Source of the DNA: an uncultured Bacteroidota bacterium
GTDB lineage: Bacteria > Bacteroidota > Bacteroidia > Bacteroidales > CG2-30-32-10
Assembly: GCA_903847905.1 (NCBI GenBank)
Contig: CAINEZ010000045.1
Coordinates: 1-36,098 of the forward strand
Length of the DNA: 36,098 bases
Reading direction: 5' to 3'
Shown here: positions 155-10,135 of the stretch, piece by piece
Layout: every line of letters begins with the position of its first letter
How positions within the stretch are numbered: position 1 is the first letter of the stretch
Notes under the pieces: generated by a model
Seen by the model: only the letters and a program-made list of their open reading frames with translations
The model's database searches: none
Told to the model about the DNA's origin: nothing
Made by a program: the position numbers and the translations under genes

Positions 155-304
155 TTATTTTGATAATTTTTTATTAAAAATTATCGTGACTAGCACAATC
201 AATCCGGCTAGTACTAGAAGCACATGAACAAATTCGGTTGGTTTAAAAACAATTATCCAAATTACTATAAGTAGTCCGGCAATTATATAAAGTAAATTTT
301 TCAT
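155..304 (-). CDS. Small Lmo0937-type membrane protein
   Basis: A 49-residue protein starting MKNLLYIIAGLLIVIWII and ending IIFNKKLSK. It has two hydrophobic segments, about residues 4-20 and 26-43, separated by a short KPTEF linker. Size, the NLLY start and the HVLLVLAGLIVLV second helix resemble the Lmo0937/DUF5670 family of tiny membrane proteins of unknown function. That assignment is from memory of the family pattern, not a search. The start ATG lies 20 nt after the stop of the barrel-protein gene, so both probably share the promoter element at 1003-1070. A role in envelope stress is inference only. Confidence 0.7.
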   Translation of the reverse strand: MKNLLYIIAGLLIVIWIIVFKPTEFVHVLLVLAGLIVLVTIIFNKKLSK

Positions 305-324
305 GTTTTTCAGATCTATAATAA

Positions 325-942
325 TTAATGAATAGCCAGACCAATAGTTGAAACACCGGTTGACAGGTCAAGGAATATTCCAATCGCTTTATTTATGTGG
401 TATTCTGTTCCTGCATGTATATCAAGAAATAAAGGACTTGCATTTTGGTAGTAATTTCTATCGCCATAATAACCGTTATCCCATCTTGAATTTACTATTG
501 CAAATCCTAATGAACCTGCCAGGTAAAAATCCCAGTCTGAATTTGCTTCGAGTAACTGATCAAAATAGTAAGTGCCTTTAACACCTATCGGGATAACCGT
601 TTCGTGATAGTAATAATATTTATAAGGGTTATCATGGTTACCCCAATAATATTCGTTTTTGTATGAATAAAAACTAACAAAAGGAGCTAACGTAAAATTC
701 TTTAACACATCAAATTCATAGTCGATATGAAAAACAGGCATATCATGCCCAACATATCCATAATAGCCAGAATAACCGCCAATGCCTAAGCCTAAGTTTA
801 AGGTTTTCCCAAATTTTTCCGAAGAATAATTCGATGATGATGTTGTAGTAGTAGTTGTAACTGTTGTTGTTGTTTGTTGAGCATAGATATTAAAACTTAA
901 TACCGATGAGAAGAACAGCGAAATGATAAATGTTTTTTTCAT
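325..942 (-). CDS. Secreted outer-membrane beta-barrel-like protein
   Basis: 205 residues from the ATG at 942. The frame is open further upstream, but MKKTFIISLFFSSVLSF is a classic signal peptide, probably cleaved after IYAQ, so this start is preferred. A threonine/serine-rich stretch (about residues 24-42) follows. The rest alternates hydrophobic and polar residues with much Tyr and Gly (GIGGYSGYYGYVGHD, FVSFYSYKNEYYW, HAGTEYHINKAIGIFLDLS), as expected of a small 8-strand outer-membrane barrel. No enzymatic motif is visible. It is first in a probable two-gene operon with the small membrane protein, and the 68-nt promoter element ends 61 nt before its start. Function is unknown; a porin-like or structural envelope role is inferred. 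Confidence 0.75.
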   Translation of the reverse strand: MKKTFIISLFFSSVLSFNIYAQQTTTTVTTTTTTSSSNYSSEKFGKTLNLGLGIGGYSGYYGYVGHDMPVFHIDYEFDVLKNFTLAPFVSFYSYKNEYYWGNHDNPYKYYYYHETVIPIGVKGTYYFDQLLEANSDWDFYLAGSLGFAIVNSRWDNGYYGDRNYYQNASPLFLDIHAGTEYHINKAIGIFLDLSTGVSTIGLAIH

Positions 943-1002: not shown

Positions 1003-1070
1003 CAAAGGTGAGTACATAAATTCAGGAAGGTGTTACATAATTCAGGAAAAGAGTTACATCATTCACACAC
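1003..1070 (-). promoter_or_regulatory. 68-nt promoter-like element, copy A
   Basis: Read on the minus strand it begins GTGTGTGAATGATGTAAC and ends CACCTTTG, close to the Bacteroidota -7 box TAnnTTTG. It contains three half-site-like units: GTTACATCATTCA (1053-1065), GTTACATAATTCA (1032-1044) and GTACATAAATTCA (1012-1024), written on the plus strand. They are spaced 21 and 20 bp apart, about two helical turns. Copies B (5245-5312) and C (4643-4710) align with it without gaps. No good -33 box is seen, which suggests activator dependence. Its target is the barrel-protein gene starting at 942. Confidence 0.7.
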
Positions 1071-1155
1071 TTGTCTGTGGTATAATTTCGAAAGGGGGCA
1101 ATATACGGCGAGAAAGGTTATTATGTAATAAACATGATAAAATCTTGCATTTATT

Positions 1156-1303: not shown

Positions 1304-1738
1304 CTACATTCTTTCCATATACCAATTCAGTTCCTTTTCCATTTTTTGGTAACGGAAAATTGTAGTGATGATTTTTTGTAAGCGTATGAATGCGGTTTCG
1401 CTTTTTACTACATAATCAAAAGCCCTGTGATGCATACAGTTTATTGCCACATCAATTTTATCCTGACCTGATAGCATCACTACGGGAATATCCGGATTAT
1501 AAGCTTTTATTTTATCTAATGTTTCTATTCCGTTCATGGCGTTTTTATCAATGCCGTCAAGAAGATAATCTAAAATGATTACATCAGGGGAGTGCGATAA
1601 ATTCTCCATGCAAAGTTCTCCTGTTGCATAAGTTTCAATGGCAAAATCAGCGTGCTGGAGAAATTCCATTTCTAATGATTTTAAAAAAACGGCATCGTCA
1701 TCCACCAGGAAAAGTTTTATTTTATTTTCATTTTTCAT
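1304..1738 (-). CDS. Stand-alone response regulator receiver (CheY-like)
   Basis: 144 residues that are essentially one receiver domain. The acidic pocket is D13-D15 (LVDDDAVFL), the phospho-acceptor is D57 (VIILDYLLDG), the switch Ser is S90 (VVMLSGQD) and the conserved Lys is K112 (DYVVKSE). The last 25 residues form a short charged helix, and there is no DNA-binding or enzymatic output domain. The ATG at 1738 lies inside the end of the hybrid kinase gene (11-nt overlap), which implies translational coupling. It probably receives phosphate from the kinase's C-terminal Hpt domain and signals by protein contact; that partnership is inferred from gene order. Confidence 0.9.
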   Translation of the reverse strand: MKNENKIKLFLVDDDAVFLKSLEMEFLQHADFAIETYATGELCMENLSHSPDVIILDYLLDGIDKNAMNGIETLDKIKAYNPDIPVVMLSGQDKIDVAINCMHHRAFDYVVKSETAFIRLQKIITTIFRYQKMEKELNWYMERM

Positions 1739-4002
1739 TTTTAGTGTTTTTAATCATATTAAATTCTTCTTGTAACTCCATACATGCCTGCGCACATACG
1801 TCCTCAAGTTGCAATACCAATGCAGGTATTCCGTCTGTCTGAAGTTGTGTGCTTGCATATTCCTGAACTTGTTTTGCCATATTTTCAAAATCTGTACTAA
1901 TACCCATTATTGAAAACGAAGGTATCATTTTATGTACTGCCGCGTACAATAATTTCCAATCTTTATCGTGCAAGCTTTTTTTCATTGCGCTAATTAATGG
2001 AGGAGTTTGCTCCAGGTAAAGCGAAATCATTTCCATCATTAATGTAGGATCAGATTTCGTACGGTGGATCAAATAATCAAGATCAATACATTTTGACTTT
2101 TTACTTTTACCGTTTCCATTTTCTTTATGTTCATCTGTTTTTATAATTACTGGTTTCTTTACCAGCCCAAGTATTTTACTGTATAATATTCTTTCGTCAA
2201 CCGGCTTTGCGATGTAATCATTCATGCCAACAGCTTTGCATTTTGCCAGATCAACCGTGGTTACATCGGCAGTTAAAGCTATAATAGGGATTTTAGAATT
2301 CATTTTATTGCGAATGTATTCTGTGGCTTCAAACCCGTTCATTTCAGGCATCTGCAAATCCATCAAAATAATATCGTAAGATTTATTTTGTAATTTTTCG
2401 ATTGCTATTTTCCCGTTGGTGGCGATATCACGTTCAAATCCGAAATCGTCCAATAGGGTTTTCATCAGTAATTGATTAAGCGCAATGTCTTCAACCACCA
2501 ATACTTTTATGTTTTTAATTTCTGTATCCAATTCCACTACTTCTGTTTCTAATTCAGCTTCGGCTTTTGTTTTCAAGAAACTTAATTTAAAACTAAAAGT
2601 TGAGCCCTTACCTATTTTACTTTTTACATTAATGCTTCCACCCTGCGGTTCTACTAATTGCTTAACAATGGAAAGCCCTAAACCCGTGCCCCCATATATC
2701 CTTGAAGTGCCGCTGGTTGCCTGACGGAAAGTTTCAAAAATATCTTCTAATTTACTTTCCGCTATTCCAATTCCTGTATCAGTAACTGCAAATTCGATGG
2801 TTGCTTTCTCTTCATCTTCATTCAACAAACGAACGCTAACAGTAATTTTTCCTTCTGTTGTAAACTTAACTGCATTACTCACAAGATTTAAAATAATCTG
2901 GTGCAAGCGTACGGGGTCGCCAACCAATACTTCAGGAATTTTATTATCGTATTCTTTAACTAATTCTAAATTTTTTTCCTGAATTTTTGTCTCAAACAAA
3001 TGAAGCATGGCTGATATTGATAACGCCATTTTAAAAGGTGTTTGCTCAAATAACATTTTTCCTGCATCTACTTTTGCCAGATCGAGTATGTCGTTAATGA
3101 GTACGATCAATGCGTCGCCACTCATTTTTATGGCTGTTAAATATTCTTTTTGTTTTGCTGAAAGATCTGTTTTTAATACCACTTTTGTAAATCCGATAAT
3201 CGCATTCATAGGAGTGCGAATTTCATGACTCATGTTCGATAAAAACTGCTGTTTAGCTTTCACAGCATTTTCTGCTATTAATGCGGCGCTTTGGGCTTTA
3301 CTTTTTTCCTCTTCTGCAATCGCTGTTGCTAACTCAGCAAATACTTTCGCCTCCAGCATTTCTTTTTCTATTCTTTTTTGTTCAGTAACATCTCTCGCCA
3401 CTACAACTGCACCGAGCACATTACCTTTTTCATCTTTATAAACCGAACCGTTAAACAACACGTCTGTTAACTTGCCATCCCTTATGGTTAGTGGATAATC
3501 TACCACAAAACCTTTTGCAAATACTTCCTGGTAAACTTCACGGGCTTTTTGTGAATCGGTAAAATAATCAAAAAAGTCAGTGCCTGTAAGTTTTTCATGA
3601 GTCATCTCCGTAATGTTAGCAAATGCTTTATTCATATCAGTTATCTTGCCTTCGTTACTTATGGTAACCAATGGATCGCGGCTCGCTTCAATAAGACTAC
3701 GGGCATAGTTAGCAACGATTAACTCTGCTGCACGTTTTTCTTTCTCTTCGTTTTGAAATGCAAGTTCTTTGTCAGCAATGATTAACTCTGCTGCACGTTT
3801 TTTTTTCTCTCCGGTTTGAAAGACAAGTTCTTTGTTCGCAATGCTTAGCTCTGCTGCACGTTTTTTTTTTCTCTCTGGTTTGAAAGACAAGTTCTTTGTT
3901 GGCAATACTTAATTCCGCTGCACGTTTTTCTTTCTCTTTGTTTTGAAAAGCAAGTTCTTTACGAGCAATTATCAACTCCTCTTTATCAGATTTTTTTATC
4001 AT
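1728..4002 (-). CDS. Hybrid sensor histidine kinase (coiled coil-PAS-HisKA-HATPase-REC-Hpt), frame broken near its 5' end
   Basis: From the ATG at 4002 the protein begins MIKKSDKEELIIARKEL, then four 21-residue coiled-coil repeats. The frame is lost in a run of ten A (minus strand, 3861-3870); with nine A, as in the next repeat, it stays open to 1728 and gives 757 residues. Domains follow: PAS (LIEASRDPLVTISNEGKITD), HisKA with the phospho-His in SHEIRTPMNAIIGF (about residue 259), HATPase with LVSNAVKF, DTGIGI and GGTGLGLSI, a receiver with Asp in ILMDLQMPEMNG (about 547), and an Hpt with VHKMIPSFSIMG (about 690). There is no membrane segment, so it is likely cytoplasmic. It starts 12 nt after the AraC-type gene and overlaps the receiver gene by 11 nt, so the three form an operon. 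The broken frame may be real decay, phase variation or a sequencing error. Confidence 0.85.
3714..3966 (-). repeat. Four tandem 63-bp repeats coding a 21-residue coiled-coil unit
   Basis: Four copies of a unit of the form A[NDR]KEL[VA]FQ[TN]xEKxKRAAEL[SI][IV] lie head to tail: 3966-3904, 3903-3840 (64 nt, carrying the extra base), 3839-3777 and 3776-3714. Twenty-one residues equal three heptads, so copy-number change would lengthen the helix without breaking its register. Such repeats upstream of PAS domains are known from other hybrid kinases. Confidence 0.85.
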
Positions 4003-4014
4003 AATTATAAGTTT

Positions 4015-4614
4015 TCAATTTAATTTAACCTGACTGCCGTCAGGCAGGTTTCCAATTTCTTCTATCGGGCTTCGCCTTTTATCCTTCAATTGTTTAAAAT
4101 GAGAAGGTGAGAGCCCTGTAACTTTTTTAAATTGATTAGATAAATGAGCAACACTGCTGTAATTCATTTTCCATGCAATTTCTGTAATATTTAATTCATC
4201 ATAAATAATCAATTCTTTTATCCTTTCAATTTTGTGAGAAATGATGAATTGCTCAATAGTAGTTCCTTGTACTTCTGAAAATAAATTTGCCAGGTAAGTA
4301 TAATCGTGATTTAATTTTTTACTTAAAAAATCGGAAAAGTTTATTTTTATTATTTCGTCATTTGTATGGTGAACCATTTCAATAATTGTATTTTTTATTT
4401 TTTCAATCAATACAGCTCTCTTGTCGTCCATTAATTCAAGTCCTGAGTTGAGTAAAGCAATTTTTACCTGCTCTCGCTGTTCCGCAGAAATGTTTTCCAT
4501 TATCTCCACTTCACCTAAATCTACAACAATAAAATGCAGTCCAAGTTTTTTTAACTCTTCTTTCACCGCCATTTTACAGCGGTTACTTACCATGTATTTA
4601 ATGTATAATTTCAA
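4015..4614 (-). CDS. AraC-type regulator with HMA-like N-terminal domain, paralogue 1
   Basis: 199 residues from TTG at 4614. Residues 1-65 (KLYIKYMVSNRCKMAVKEEL ... VVDLGEVEI ... LLNSGLELMDD) match the pattern of a heavy-metal-associated ferredoxin-like fold, but the usual MxCxxC reads MVSNRC, with the first Cys replaced by Ser. Residues about 95-185 are a double helix-turn-helix of the AraC type (YLANLFSEVQGTTIEQFI; ITEIAWKMNYSSVAHLSNQFKKVTGLSPSHF). TTG is preferred over the ATG seven codons later because KLYIKY is conserved with the paralogue through synonymous changes. The C-terminal LPDGSQ is encoded by a dispersed GC palindrome. It heads the operon with the hybrid kinase and receiver, behind promoter copy C. 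The ligand is unknown. Confidence 0.85.
   Translation of the reverse strand: MKLYIKYMVSNRCKMAVKEELKKLGLHFIVVDLGEVEIMENISAEQREQVKIALLNSGLELMDDKRAVLIEKIKNTIIEMVHHTNDEIIKINFSDFLSKKLNHDYTYLANLFSEVQGTTIEQFIISHKIERIKELIIYDELNITEIAWKMNYSSVAHLSNQFKKVTGLSPSHFKQLKDKRRSPIEEIGNLPDGSQVKLN
4029..4048. repeat. GC-rich dispersed palindrome overlapping a gene end
   Basis: CCTGACTGCCGTCAGGCAGG is an imperfect palindrome related to those at 6089-6109, 10397-10417 and 29611-29630. Here it lies within the last codons of the AraC-type gene and encodes LPDGSQ, which the paralogue lacks. Confidence 0.6.
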
Positions 4615-4642: not shown

Positions 4643-4710
4643 CAAAGTTGCGCAGCTTTTTATTGAAAAGTGTTATACAATTAAAGAGAAAAATTGTATA
4701 ATTCACACAT
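4643..4710 (-). promoter_or_regulatory. 68-nt promoter-like element, copy C
   Basis: On the minus strand it runs from ATGTGTGAATTATACAAT to CAACTTTG. The half-site-like units, on the plus strand, are ATTGTATAATTCA (4693-4705) and GTTATACAATTAA (4672-4684), 21 bp apart. The distance from the inner unit to the TTTG box equals that in copies A and B. The box ends 29 nt before the TTG start of AraC-type gene 1, so it probably drives the regulator-kinase-receiver operon. Confidence 0.7.
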
Positions 4711-4804
4711 TGTGCCAATGTGGCATCTGTAATAATATTTTATATGTGAAATATTTTTCTTTTTTGATTAAGCAATCAACCTGGTTTATGAAGGAAAAGC
4801 AGAG

Positions 4805-4981
4805 TTATAAAACTTCTTTTATTTCTTCAAAATGAGTATGATAAAAATTGTCTATAACCCATGATTTAAACTTACATAGTTCTTCACGATGCAAGTAACT
4901 AATTGACTTAATCAGTTCTTTCTTGAACAACTCATTATTAAAACTTACTTTTTGAAGAATTACTTTTTCATATTCAAACAT
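4805..4981 (-). CDS. Small conserved-looking protein, 58 residues
   Basis: ATG at 4981 to TAA at 4805. The product begins MFEYEKVILQKVSFNNELF and ends HFEEIKEVL. It is soluble, charged and helical, with one Cys and one Trp and no signal peptide or membrane segment. Composition and codon use look like a true gene rather than a chance frame. It resembles short Bacteroidota hypothetical proteins starting MFxYEK that I recall, but I cannot name a function. Promoter copy B lies 264 nt upstream, with a hairpin element (5023-5214) in between. It sits between the two AraC-type genes, in the same direction. Confidence 0.6.
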   Translation of the reverse strand: MFEYEKVILQKVSFNNELFKKELIKSISYLHREELCKFKSWVIDNFYHTHFEEIKEVL

Positions 4982-5022: not shown

Positions 5023-5214
5023 TTAGATATTACCAGTTGTGCTATTAACATATAAAAGATTGATTGTCAGACTGATTAATGTCAGCCTGAGTTCATCGAA
5101 GGCTAATAGAAGTCATATTTCGATATGGCTTCGACAGGCTCAGCCTGATATTGCTCAATATGACACTTGATTATTAATCAGTTACTTTTTCAATAGCACA
5201 AGGCGTTAGATATT
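5023..5214. mobile_element. Candidate MITE-like hairpin element with 9-bp target duplication
   Basis: TTAGATATT occurs at 5023-5031 and again at 5206-5214. The 174 bp between them has terminal inverted repeats TTGTGCTATT (5037-5046) and AATAGCACAA (5192-5201), inner inverted ACTGATTAAT (5071-5080) and ATTAATCAGT (5173-5182), and inner arms related to the CTTCGA...CTCAGCCTGA repeat family (5081-5101 and 5129-5148). There is no coding sequence. This fits a non-autonomous transposon. The flank is AT-rich and a third TTAGATATT occurs at 5912-5920, so chance is not excluded. It also fills most of the 4982-5304 gap. Confidence 0.5.
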
Positions 5215-5244: not shown

Positions 5245-5312
5245 CAAAGGAGAGCCCTTTAATTCATGGAAGCATTACACAAAAAAAGAAAATTGTTACA
5301 TCATTCACACAT
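5245..5312 (-). promoter_or_regulatory. 68-nt promoter-like element, copy B
   Basis: On the minus strand it runs from ATGTGTGAATGATGTAAC to CTCCTTTG. GTTACATCATTCACACA (5295-5311) matches copy A exactly over 17 nt (1053-1069). The inner unit at 5274-5286 (ATTACACAAAAAA) is weaker but has the same 21-bp phase. The element overlaps the last codon of AraC-type gene 2. Its nearest downstream gene is the 58-residue protein starting at 4981. Confidence 0.65.
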
Positions 5313-5883
5313 CTGTGCCGATAAGCAGATTATCAAGTGTGTCGCGTTTTTTGTGTTTAAGCTGCTTGTAGAAGGTAGGTGTTAATCCTGTAACTTTCTT
5401 AAATTGTTTGGATAAATGCGATACGCTGCTGTAATTAAGCTTGTAGGATATTTGGGTAAGGTTTAGCTCATCATATAAAAGTAATTCTTTTACCCGTTCT
5501 ATTTTGTGAGCGATAATAAAATGTTCAATGGTGATGCCTGTTACCTCCGAAAATAGGTTGGCGAGGTATGTGTAGTCGTAATGGAGCTTCCCGCTTAGGT
5601 AATCGGAAAAATTTATTTTGGGAAATTCGTCTGCATAATGTACCATCTCAATAATTACATTTTTTATTTTTTCAATCAGAATGGCTTTTTTGTCATCCAT
5701 CAACTCAAGCCCTGATTTCAATAAAGCTATCTTCAATTGGTCACGCTGCTCAGCAGTAATATTCTCTTTAACCTCTACTTCACCTAAATCCACCATGATG
5801 TAATGCAGCCCGAGTTTATCCAGCTCTGACTTCACCATCATTTTGCAGCGAATAGAAACCATATATTTGATGTAGAGTTTCAA
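5305..5883 (-). CDS. AraC-type regulator with HMA-like N-terminal domain, paralogue 2
   Basis: 192 residues from TTG at 5883. It is strongly similar along its whole length to the regulator at 4015-4614: the same KLYIKYMVS start, the VDLGEVEV and LLKSGLELMDDKKA segments, and the same AraC-type helix-turn-helix (YLANLFSEVTGITIEHFI; LTQISYKLNYSSVSHLSKQFKKVTGLTPTFY). The metal-type MxCxxC is again MVSIRC, so the first Cys is missing in both copies. They probably arose by tandem duplication before the intervening small gene was separated or inserted. The stop codon lies inside promoter copy B. The effector is unknown; a degenerate metal sensor or a protein-interaction domain are both possible. Confidence 0.85.
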   Translation of the reverse strand: MKLYIKYMVSIRCKMMVKSELDKLGLHYIMVDLGEVEVKENITAEQRDQLKIALLKSGLELMDDKKAILIEKIKNVIIEMVHYADEFPKINFSDYLSGKLHYDYTYLANLFSEVTGITIEHFIIAHKIERVKELLLYDELNLTQISYKLNYSSVSHLSKQFKKVTGLTPTFYKQLKHKKRDTLDNLLIGTDV

Positions 5884-8934: not shown

Positions 8935-9231
8935 TCAGTATATTTCATAAAGATTAAGCCTGTTTCTGAGCGCAACAATTTCATTTTGCATAGAATTTAT
9001 TCGTTGTAATAAATGATTGATAGTCTCAATACCTTCCATGTTAATATCTAACTCGTAATAAAAGCGAATAAATTTCTCTATTTGCTGAAGCTGGCTTACA
9101 TCAATAAATTTTGTTTCTTCAATGGTAATAATTTTTATAAGTCCTGTTTGATGCAATGAACTGATAAATGAAATCTCAATGCTGTGGCTGGCGCAGAATT
9201 CATCAATAGCTATTAAATTTTCTTTTTGCAT
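8935..9231 (-). CDS. cbpM: Chaperone modulator CbpM-like
   Basis: 98 residues. The N-terminal half has a MerR-like winged-helix pattern (LIAIDEFCASHSIEISFISSLHQTGLIKII) and the rest is a long helix ending in a heptad pattern (INHLLQRINSMQNEIVALRNRL). Size and pattern match CbpM, which in Escherichia coli binds the J domain of CbpA and inhibits it. It lies 16 nt downstream of cbpA on the same strand, the classic arrangement. The function is assigned from family pattern and context. Confidence 0.8.
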   Translation of the reverse strand: MQKENLIAIDEFCASHSIEISFISSLHQTGLIKIITIEETKFIDVSQLQQIEKFIRFYYELDINMEGIETINHLLQRINSMQNEIVALRNRLNLYEIY

Positions 9232-9247
9232 TATTTATATTTTAAAA

Positions 9248-10135
9248 TTACGATTTAGATAATTCGGTAAATAATAATTTTTGTTTATCGGTTAAATTTG
9301 TTGGGATTTTGATGGAATAAGTTACATATAAATCTCCAAAACACCCTTCATTTTTATAAACAGGAAAGCCCTTTCCTTTTAATTTTATTTTACTTCCATT
9401 TTGTGTTTCAGGTTTTACTTTTAGTTTTACTTTTCCATTTAAAGTATCAATAGTAATATCGCCCCCCAACACAGCTGTATATAAATCTAAATCTACAGTC
9501 GAAAATAAATCATTTCCCAAACGTTTAATTTTAGAATGATTGGTTACTGAAAACGTAATATATAAATCGCCATTCGGTCCGCCATTTATTCCCATGCCTC
9601 CATGTTCTGAAATTTTAATTGTTTGTCCATTTTCAATTCCTGCCGGAATAGTAATTCTTATGTTTTTCCCGTTTACTGTTAACGTTTGTTTGTGGGTTTT
9701 ATATGCGTCAATGAGGTCGAGATGTAATTCAGCATTGTAATCTTCGCCTCTGTATTTTACCTGCCTGCTTCTGCCGGCGCTTGCTGCCCCGCCAAACAGA
9801 GATTCAAAAAAATCAGAGAAATCTTCTTCAGATTGTGCGCCTGAGTACTTTGCTCCACGCGAATTTGATGATTGTTCCTGATAATATTTTGATTTTTCAA
9901 ATTCTTCAGCATGTTGCCAGTCATTTCCGTATTGATCGTATTTCTTGCGTTTTTCCGGATCGCTTAATACTTCATTTGCTTCATTAATTTGCTGAAAATT
10001 CTTTTTAGCATCTTTATCATTAGGATTCAAATCGGGGTGATATTTTCTTGCCAATTTCCTGTAGGCGCTTTTGATGTCCTTTGGCGTTGCCGTTTTATCT
10101 ATTCCTAATATTTTGTAATAATCTATGAAAGTCAT
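9248..10135 (-). CDS. cbpA: DnaJ-type co-chaperone CbpA-like
   Basis: 295 residues. The J domain (1-70) has the HPD motif in ARKYHPDLNPNDKDAKK. A Gly/Ser/Phe-rich linker follows (about 80-120, FSDFFESLFGGAASAGR), then two DnaJ C-terminal beta domains (NGKNIRITIPAGIENGQTI; GGDITIDTLNGKVKLKV; GSKIKLKGKGFPVYKN). The cysteine zinc-finger of DnaJ is absent, which makes it CbpA-type. It should stimulate DnaK. It is first in the cbpA-cbpM pair, possibly followed by mgtA. A -7 box is proposed at 10188-10195. Confidence 0.9.
   Translation of the reverse strand: MTFIDYYKILGIDKTATPKDIKSAYRKLARKYHPDLNPNDKDAKKNFQQINEANEVLSDPEKRKKYDQYGNDWQHAEEFEKSKYYQEQSSNSRGAKYSGAQSEEDFSDFFESLFGGAASAGRSRQVKYRGEDYNAELHLDLIDAYKTHKQTLTVNGKNIRITIPAGIENGQTIKISEHGGMGINGGPNGDLYITFSVTNHSKIKRLGNDLFSTVDLDLYTAVLGGDITIDTLNGKVKLKVKPETQNGSKIKLKGKGFPVYKNEGCFGDLYVTYSIKIPTNLTDKQKLLFTELSKS

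Follow-up and report, generated by a model that had tools for sequence, protein, structure and literature searches.

Tandem boxes 21 bp apart at Bacteroidota -7 promoters and a putative stress regulon of AraC-type regulators with an HMA-like N-terminal domain

Activators of the AraC/XylS family (AraC, MelR, RhaS, MarA/SoxS) possess a double-HTH DNA-binding domain, use tandem sites about two helix turns apart by the core promoter and are autoregulated. General stress regulons of other phyla are controlled by sigma-B or EcfG, and to our knowledge no general stress response regulator is known for Bacteroidota. In the AraC-type HTCS proteins of Bacteroides, the sensor, histidine kinase, receiver and AraC domain follow one another in a single chain that serves polysaccharide use; their predicted sites are direct repeats with an average distance of 21 bp (PMC3878776). 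A further point of comparison is provided by the HMA metalloproteins Atx1 and CopZ and by copper regulators, which have the b-a-b-b-a-b fold.

The locus described here resembles each of these systems in part. It lies in the window, that is, the whole 36,098-nt stretch of DNA that was analysed, from an uncultured member of the Bacteroidales. Its two regulators, AraC1 and AraC2, have the double-HTH domain, the tandem sites and, as a prediction, the autoregulation of AraC/XylS activators, but their N-terminal part is a predicted HMA-like domain of about 60 aa rather than the AraC cupin arm, the sites can extend over the 3' end of a regulator gene, and the promoter is of the Bacteroidota -7 type. 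The AraC-type domain, the 21-bp direct repeats and a link to a hybrid histidine kinase are shared with the HTCS. However, the one-chain order is replaced by separate genes in the window, the AraC part is separate from the kinase or fused N-terminally to it and does not itself include a receiver domain, and the putative regulon concerns stress. The predicted fold is common to Atx1/CopZ, and distant homologs carry CxxC near CopA-type genes, whereas the window proteins have SxxC, fall below the Pfam HMA cut-off and are joined to an AraC domain. The sigma-B and EcfG regulons have target kinds in common with this one (CsbD, Dps/ferritin-like and small membrane proteins); here, however, an AraC-type protein would act at primary-sigma-like -7 promoters, with no alternative sigma factor. 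Neither the motif nor an HMA-AraC protein was found described in the open-licence literature on AraC, copper and stress regulons; in a flavobacterium copper paper, 'AraC' is absent from the main text (PMC11213822).

Promoter unit and its conservation

A repeat search of the window aligned three copies (A, B and C) over 72 nt in one register, at 1003-1074, 4643-4714 and 5245-5316, the plus strand of each opening with CAAAG. The -7 box of Bacteroidota is TAnnTTTG (PMC7366714). Since plus-strand CAAAG is minus-strand CTTTG, the end of a -7 box, the functional unit lies on the minus strand, along which all three promoters point; the initial annotation had read the copies on the opposite strand. 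In minus-strand order, each promoter consists of ATGTGTGAATNATGTAAC (box 1), TTATGTAACAC (box 2) 21 bp further on, and a -7 box of the form xAnnTTTG at a fixed distance, without a -33 TTG. The scores given below are those of a 43-nt profile (PWM).

1053..1071, minus strand: copy A box 1 (AGTGTGTGAATGATGTAAC), PWM score 52.8
1030..1045, minus strand: copy A box 2 (TGAATTATGTAACACC region), following box 1 at 21 bp, from the site alignment
1012..1024, minus strand: third unit of the initial annotation, between -33 and -7, unconserved, judged to be no binding unit
1003..1010, minus strand: copy A -7 box CACCTTTG, spaced as is conserved among the sites, from the site alignment
4693..4711, minus strand: copy B box 1 (AATGTGTGAATTATACAAT), PWM score 37.4
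4670..4685, minus strand: copy B box 2, from the profile match and site alignment
4643..4650, minus strand: copy B -7 box CAACTTTG, from the site alignment
5295..5313, minus strand: copy C box 1, holding the araC2 TGA stop codon (5305-5307), PWM score 45.0
5272..5287, minus strand: copy C box 2, from the profile match and site alignment
5245..5252, minus strand: copy C -7 box CTCCTTTG, from the site alignment

With up to three mismatches, the single 13-mer occurs 41 times in the window against 38.6 expected from shuffles. It is thus not enriched and by itself is no proof, which comes instead from the exact words and the way they are arranged. A single mononucleotide shuffle of the collected loci, scored on one strand with the PWM, gave no score of 8 or above. 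An alignment of 167 distinct sites, anchored on box 1, shows conservation of both boxes and of a -7 box that lies outside the search pattern; information was also found in an upstream ATGT outside that pattern. A complete -7 box (A plus TTTG) is located at +56 in 236 of the 366 sites scoring at least 20 and at +55 in another 21, with at most three at every other position. The -33 element is rare, TTG starting at positions 34-37 (the expected -33 region) being counted 13 times in 378 sites.

The 21-bp step was assessed without bias, in regions and loci picked by protein, so that this distance was not built in. Among box-1 matches in loci fetched by protein, 135 of 163 have another TGTAA-like box at a distance of exactly 21 bp. 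Pairs of TGTAA with this spacing were found in 24 of the 61 regions downstream of 57-74% homologs and in 21 of the 95 regions upstream of homologs with at least 75% identity (expected, at most 0.12 in either set), compared with 0/94 and 3/92 control regions. Such repeats persist in five of the 31 regions of distant CxxC homologs. The half-sites are real and far beyond chance, with two units per promoter and not three.

The initial annotation had proposed phased AraC-type half-sites with steps of 21 and 20 bp. Its three plus-strand words do start at 1053, 1032 and 1012, and copies B and C keep two units in 21-bp phase, as it had noted, each holding box 1 and box 2. Whereas the 21-bp step stands, the third unit does not: the 167-site alignment carries no information at its place, TGTA at position 49 or 50 was counted in 7 of 378 sites, a frequency not above that of adjacent positions, and the segment has the -33 region on one side and the -7 box on the other.

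A pair of boxes with this spacing is most naturally read as two AraC monomers on one face of the helix. LytTR-type 21-bp repeats are not favoured, with no LytTR domain in the window proteins scanned and a LytTR consensus that does not fit GTTACAT. Nor is a CRP-like palindrome, box 1 being asymmetric by eye.

Genes behind the sites and the HMA-like regulators

The genes around the three copies are all located on the minus strand.

155..304, minus strand: 49-aa membrane ORF that follows the copy A gene, similar by eye to the 51-aa DUF5670 proteins
325..942, minus strand: copy A gene, predicted outer-membrane beta-barrel protein (class judged from sequence)
1304..1738, minus strand: stand-alone receiver-domain protein, end of the araC1 operon
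1728..3905, minus strand: PAS/hybrid histidine kinase (HisKA, HATPase_c, REC), downstream of araC1
4015..4614, minus strand: araC1, HMA-like N-terminal domain (MVSNRC) and AraC DNA-binding domain, TTG start by alignment with araC2
4805..4981, minus strand: 58-aa ORF between copies C and B, first gene downstream of promoter C
5305..5883, minus strand: araC2, AraC1 paralog (72% identical, MVSIRC), with copy C at its 3' end

The product of the copy A gene has no Pfam match, and members of its cluster also lie behind sites elsewhere (six genes), as do the 51-aa DUF5670 proteins. Autoregulation had initially been suggested for copy C, which in fact points away from araC2 from its 3' end, and no site was found upstream of araC2. 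Copy B precedes araC1 by about 90-120 nt, so copy B would be the autoregulatory one. The 58-aa ORF has no family match; it is separated from promoter C by a palindromic, by eye REP-like stretch (5069-5170), so this promoter may be parted from its original target.

Several further features of the window were observed. The kinase gene contains tandem 63-nt units encoding a 21-aa repeat (EELIIARKELAFQNKEKEKRAA-like; 3672-3988, minus strand), whose reading frame seems broken near a long T run at about 3858-3870, by assembly error, decay or phase variation. Beside the araC genes, and without a site, are a Mg-type P-type ATPase gene (NCBIfam TIGR01524; 6346-8868, minus strand), a MerR_2 gene (8935-9231, minus strand) and a DnaJ-type gene (9248-10135, minus strand), the latter two presumably resembling CbpA/CbpM.

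In the 4.56-Mb genome to which the window belongs, TGTGTGAATNATRTAA has six exact copies and, with at most one mismatch, 11 places. Ten of these 11, including copies A, B and C, have both boxes and a gene behind; the match at C173:7003 has box 1 only, in a coding frame, and was dropped as chance. Besides copies A, B and C, the genome thus has seven or more instances of the promoter, which precede stress-type genes. Among them are a CsbD gene (Pfam match), a DUF6600 gene (Pfam match in a close homolog of the own-genome protein) and a gene for a 66-aa His-rich protein, followed by genes that, by the look of their sequences, we take to be rubrerythrin-like or NRAMP-like; other targets are presumably a decarboxylase-like gene, a Mla-like permease and a PepSY-like protein. 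We infer that these promoters form one regulon of stress-type and envelope genes. Over all loci, the sites precede many unrelated genes (83 clusters), and CsbD, Ig-like, DUF5670, OmpA-like and Dps/ferritin-like genes dominate, not metal efflux.

Two AraC-type regulators, as initially noted, are encoded in the window (Pfam HTH_18, 3e-16 for AraC1 and 1.2e-17 for AraC2), both of about 190 aa. The AlphaFold2 model (pLDDT 89.7, pTM 0.79) consists of a b-a-b-b-a-b domain (residues 2-61), a long helix and the AraC domain. In Foldseek searches, the C-terminal part matched the double-HTH domains of MarA, AraC and AdpA, and the best full-fold match of the N-terminal part was the copper chaperone Atx1 (2xmv), a weak one (E 0.54, prob 0.98). 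The N-terminus is therefore predicted to adopt an HMA (copper-chaperone)-like ferredoxin-like fold. Pfam HMA does not match AraC1 or AraC2 and is sub-threshold in a distant homolog (17.8 bits against a cut-off of 24.8). The M-x-C-x-x-C metal ligands are absent from both proteins (MVSNRC and MVSIRC), the first cysteine being a serine (SxxC) in all 95 AraC1 types (at least 75% identity), and distant homologs have MVCxxC where AraC1 types have MVSxRC. A third HMA-AraC gene of the own genome (contig C88:98-643) shares 36% identity with AraC1; its cysteines are intact (MVCKCC), and it has no adjacent site.

Distant CxxC homologs often precede copper-efflux genes encoding CopA-type ATPases and HMA proteins, and also permeases that we take to be SO_0444-like. 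A histidine-kinase H-box within 3 kb downstream, or a kinase fusion, was identified for 77 of the 95 AraC1 types, and 12 of the 18 loci without a kinase end too soon; among CxxC homologs this link was seen in 1 of 46. In two loci (L046 and L283), AraC1 is fused in frame, N-terminal to a PAS/histidine kinase, the reverse of the Bacteroides HTCS domain order.

AraC1 and AraC2 might still sense copper or another metal, the regulon being one of metal stress. The HMA fold, the efflux and permease genes behind the CxxC homologs and the presumed NRAMP-like gene speak for this, but the uniform replacement of the first cysteine and the scarcity of metal efflux among the targets speak against it, and we consider it unlikely. 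The best reading is that the regulator descends from an HMA AraC metal regulator and lost one ligand cysteine in the branch of the window. Given the lost cysteine and the coupled kinase, the signal is probably no longer plain metal binding, although the remaining cysteine could still convey a metal or thiol signal.

Linkage, co-occurrence and spread

Linkage was defined as a site with a PWM score of at least 15 on the same strand, at most 350 nt upstream of the araC gene or around its stop codon. Among 105 full-length homologs, such a site adjoins araC in 62, compared with two on the other strand. By identity, the counts are 17/22 at 75% or above, 32/42 at 60-74%, 11/27 at 50-59%, 2/8 at 42-49% and 0/6 below. 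Part of the loci on which the PWM was trained bear araC genes. In a larger set of 187 araC genes, some of which come from motif-selected loci, 123 have an adjoining site; 64 have none at the threshold, including 25 of the 95 AraC1 types. Forty of the 123 sites occupy one identical place, in which box 1 contains the araC stop codon as its TGA or TAA. Copy C belongs to this stop-codon type, and copy B is of the upstream type. The recognition-helix words YTYLANLFS and SSVAHLSNQF are nearly constant throughout the homologs.

We searched 295 genomes of the order with a bipartite pattern, allowing three mismatches, and found matches in 110, while the AraC1 query had a homolog at E<=1e-20 in 135. Close homologs (E<=1e-60) are present in 39 of the 45 genomes with at least four sites, as opposed to 19 of the 250 with fewer (tallied by hand; Fisher p 7e-28 over the 295 genomes, kinship ignored). 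Co-occurrence of motif and regulator family is a check that the initial annotation had proposed. A reversed control pattern had at least four matches in none of the 295 genomes. In the 33 families with both genome kinds, homolog carriers have more sites in 26, fewer in three and equal numbers in four (family table entered by hand). Fewer than four sites were found in 19 of the 58 genomes with a homolog. Among the exceptions within the 45 genomes, G107 carries a site upstream of an N-terminal AraC1 fragment that lies at a contig end, G262 and G279 have homologs at 54% and 47%, and G241 has four scattered three-mismatch matches without a homolog, which are probably background.

The motif without the family is seen in two real cases, G046 and G150, MAG-like assemblies of 94% and 90% completeness that have convincing site clusters and no HMA-AraC match in the genome; we judged them too few to refute the link. 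Their site clusters stand before OmpA-like and lipoprotein genes (L176 and L177, respectively). In a phylum sample of 395 genomes, at least four sites occur in 19, of which 17 carry a homolog at E<=1e-60 (also tallied by hand). G305 and G310, the other two, combine good sites with an HMA-AraC homolog of no more than 36-37% identity that has CPRC. In these genomes (L304-L316), which belong to another class, several sites have a -7 box ending in TTTA, not TTTG. The same sample includes several motif-rich, AT-rich genomes of one genus (g190), with mostly three-mismatch matches that may be background.

Counterparts of AraC1 with 82-91% identity are found in records named Flavobacterium, Mucilaginibacter, Labilibaculum, Sunxiuqinia, Prolixibacteraceae and Ignavibacteria MAGs, and the sites are concentrated in islands, tens of kb long, that surround the araC gene (e.g., in G257 and G147). 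Such high identity across these names, together with the site islands, points to horizontal spread of the regulon.

Another DNA-binding protein of the same mobile islands might bind the repeats, with the araC genes as passengers or targets, and linkage and co-occurrence do not identify the binder, nor do the two genomes with the motif and without the family sit easily with an AraC protein. However, the two AraCs are the only recognised DNA-binding proteins in the first 6 kb of the window, no site adjoins the MerR_2 gene, the sites adjoin araC in most full-length homologs, and the 21-bp form is that predicted for Bacteroides AraC-type domains. We give this alternative a slim chance. AraC-type sites, as proposed initially, are supported by the spacing, linkage and co-occurrence; that idea was right in kind and wrong in its third unit and autoregulating copy.

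Predicted mechanism and its meaning

We propose that AraC1 and/or AraC2 occupy both boxes as two monomers bound 21 bp apart to the same face of the DNA, immediately upstream of the -33 region and in contact with it, at a promoter with a good -7 box and no -33 element. The bound protein would stand in for the missing -33 contact and recruit RNA polymerase (class II-like activation). Copy B would make the araC1 and kinase operon self-activating, and copies A and C would activate the outer-membrane gene and the 58-aa ORF, respectively, through one or both proteins. Cotranscription or fusion of araC1-type genes with a hybrid histidine kinase may supply an input other than plain metal. We consider it likely that these tandem sites serve AraC1/AraC2 as activators replacing the -33 element, with a self-activating araC1 and a stress regulon that traces back to a metal regulator.

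A protein bound at box 2, which borders the -33 region, might instead obstruct RNA polymerase, and the unit might thus be a switch in which stress releases a repressor. But the -33 TTG is nearly absent, as in activator-dependent promoters, and AraC activators usually have tandem sites on one face of the helix immediately before the core promoter, so that we consider repression very improbable. That the three copies are chance or dispersed repeats, functionless remnants of a duplication, deserves practically no credence: araC is indeed present in duplicate, and 74% of a 72-nt stretch is common to copies A and C, but sites before many unrelated genes with only the two boxes and the -7 box conserved, the PWM shuffle and the spacing test exclude it.

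On the activator reading, a wider scenario can be put forward tentatively, its chances being somewhat short of even: a stress regulon spread horizontally across many Bacteroidota under HMA-AraC activators, in which a copper-efflux regulator had its metal site broken, its input was taken over by a cotranscribed or fused kinase, and sites within the stop codon of a sister gene let each regulator gene feed the next stress gene.

For a phylum whose stress control is poorly known, the locus would offer a regulator, its site and a gene list for a stress regulon. It may also represent a metal sensor turned to something else, with the same DNA sites kept, one ligand cysteine lost and a kinase gained. 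Two boxes at 21 bp, a fixed -7 box and no -33 element would provide a clean model for activator-dependent promoters in Bacteroidota, with a site for which any genome can be scanned.
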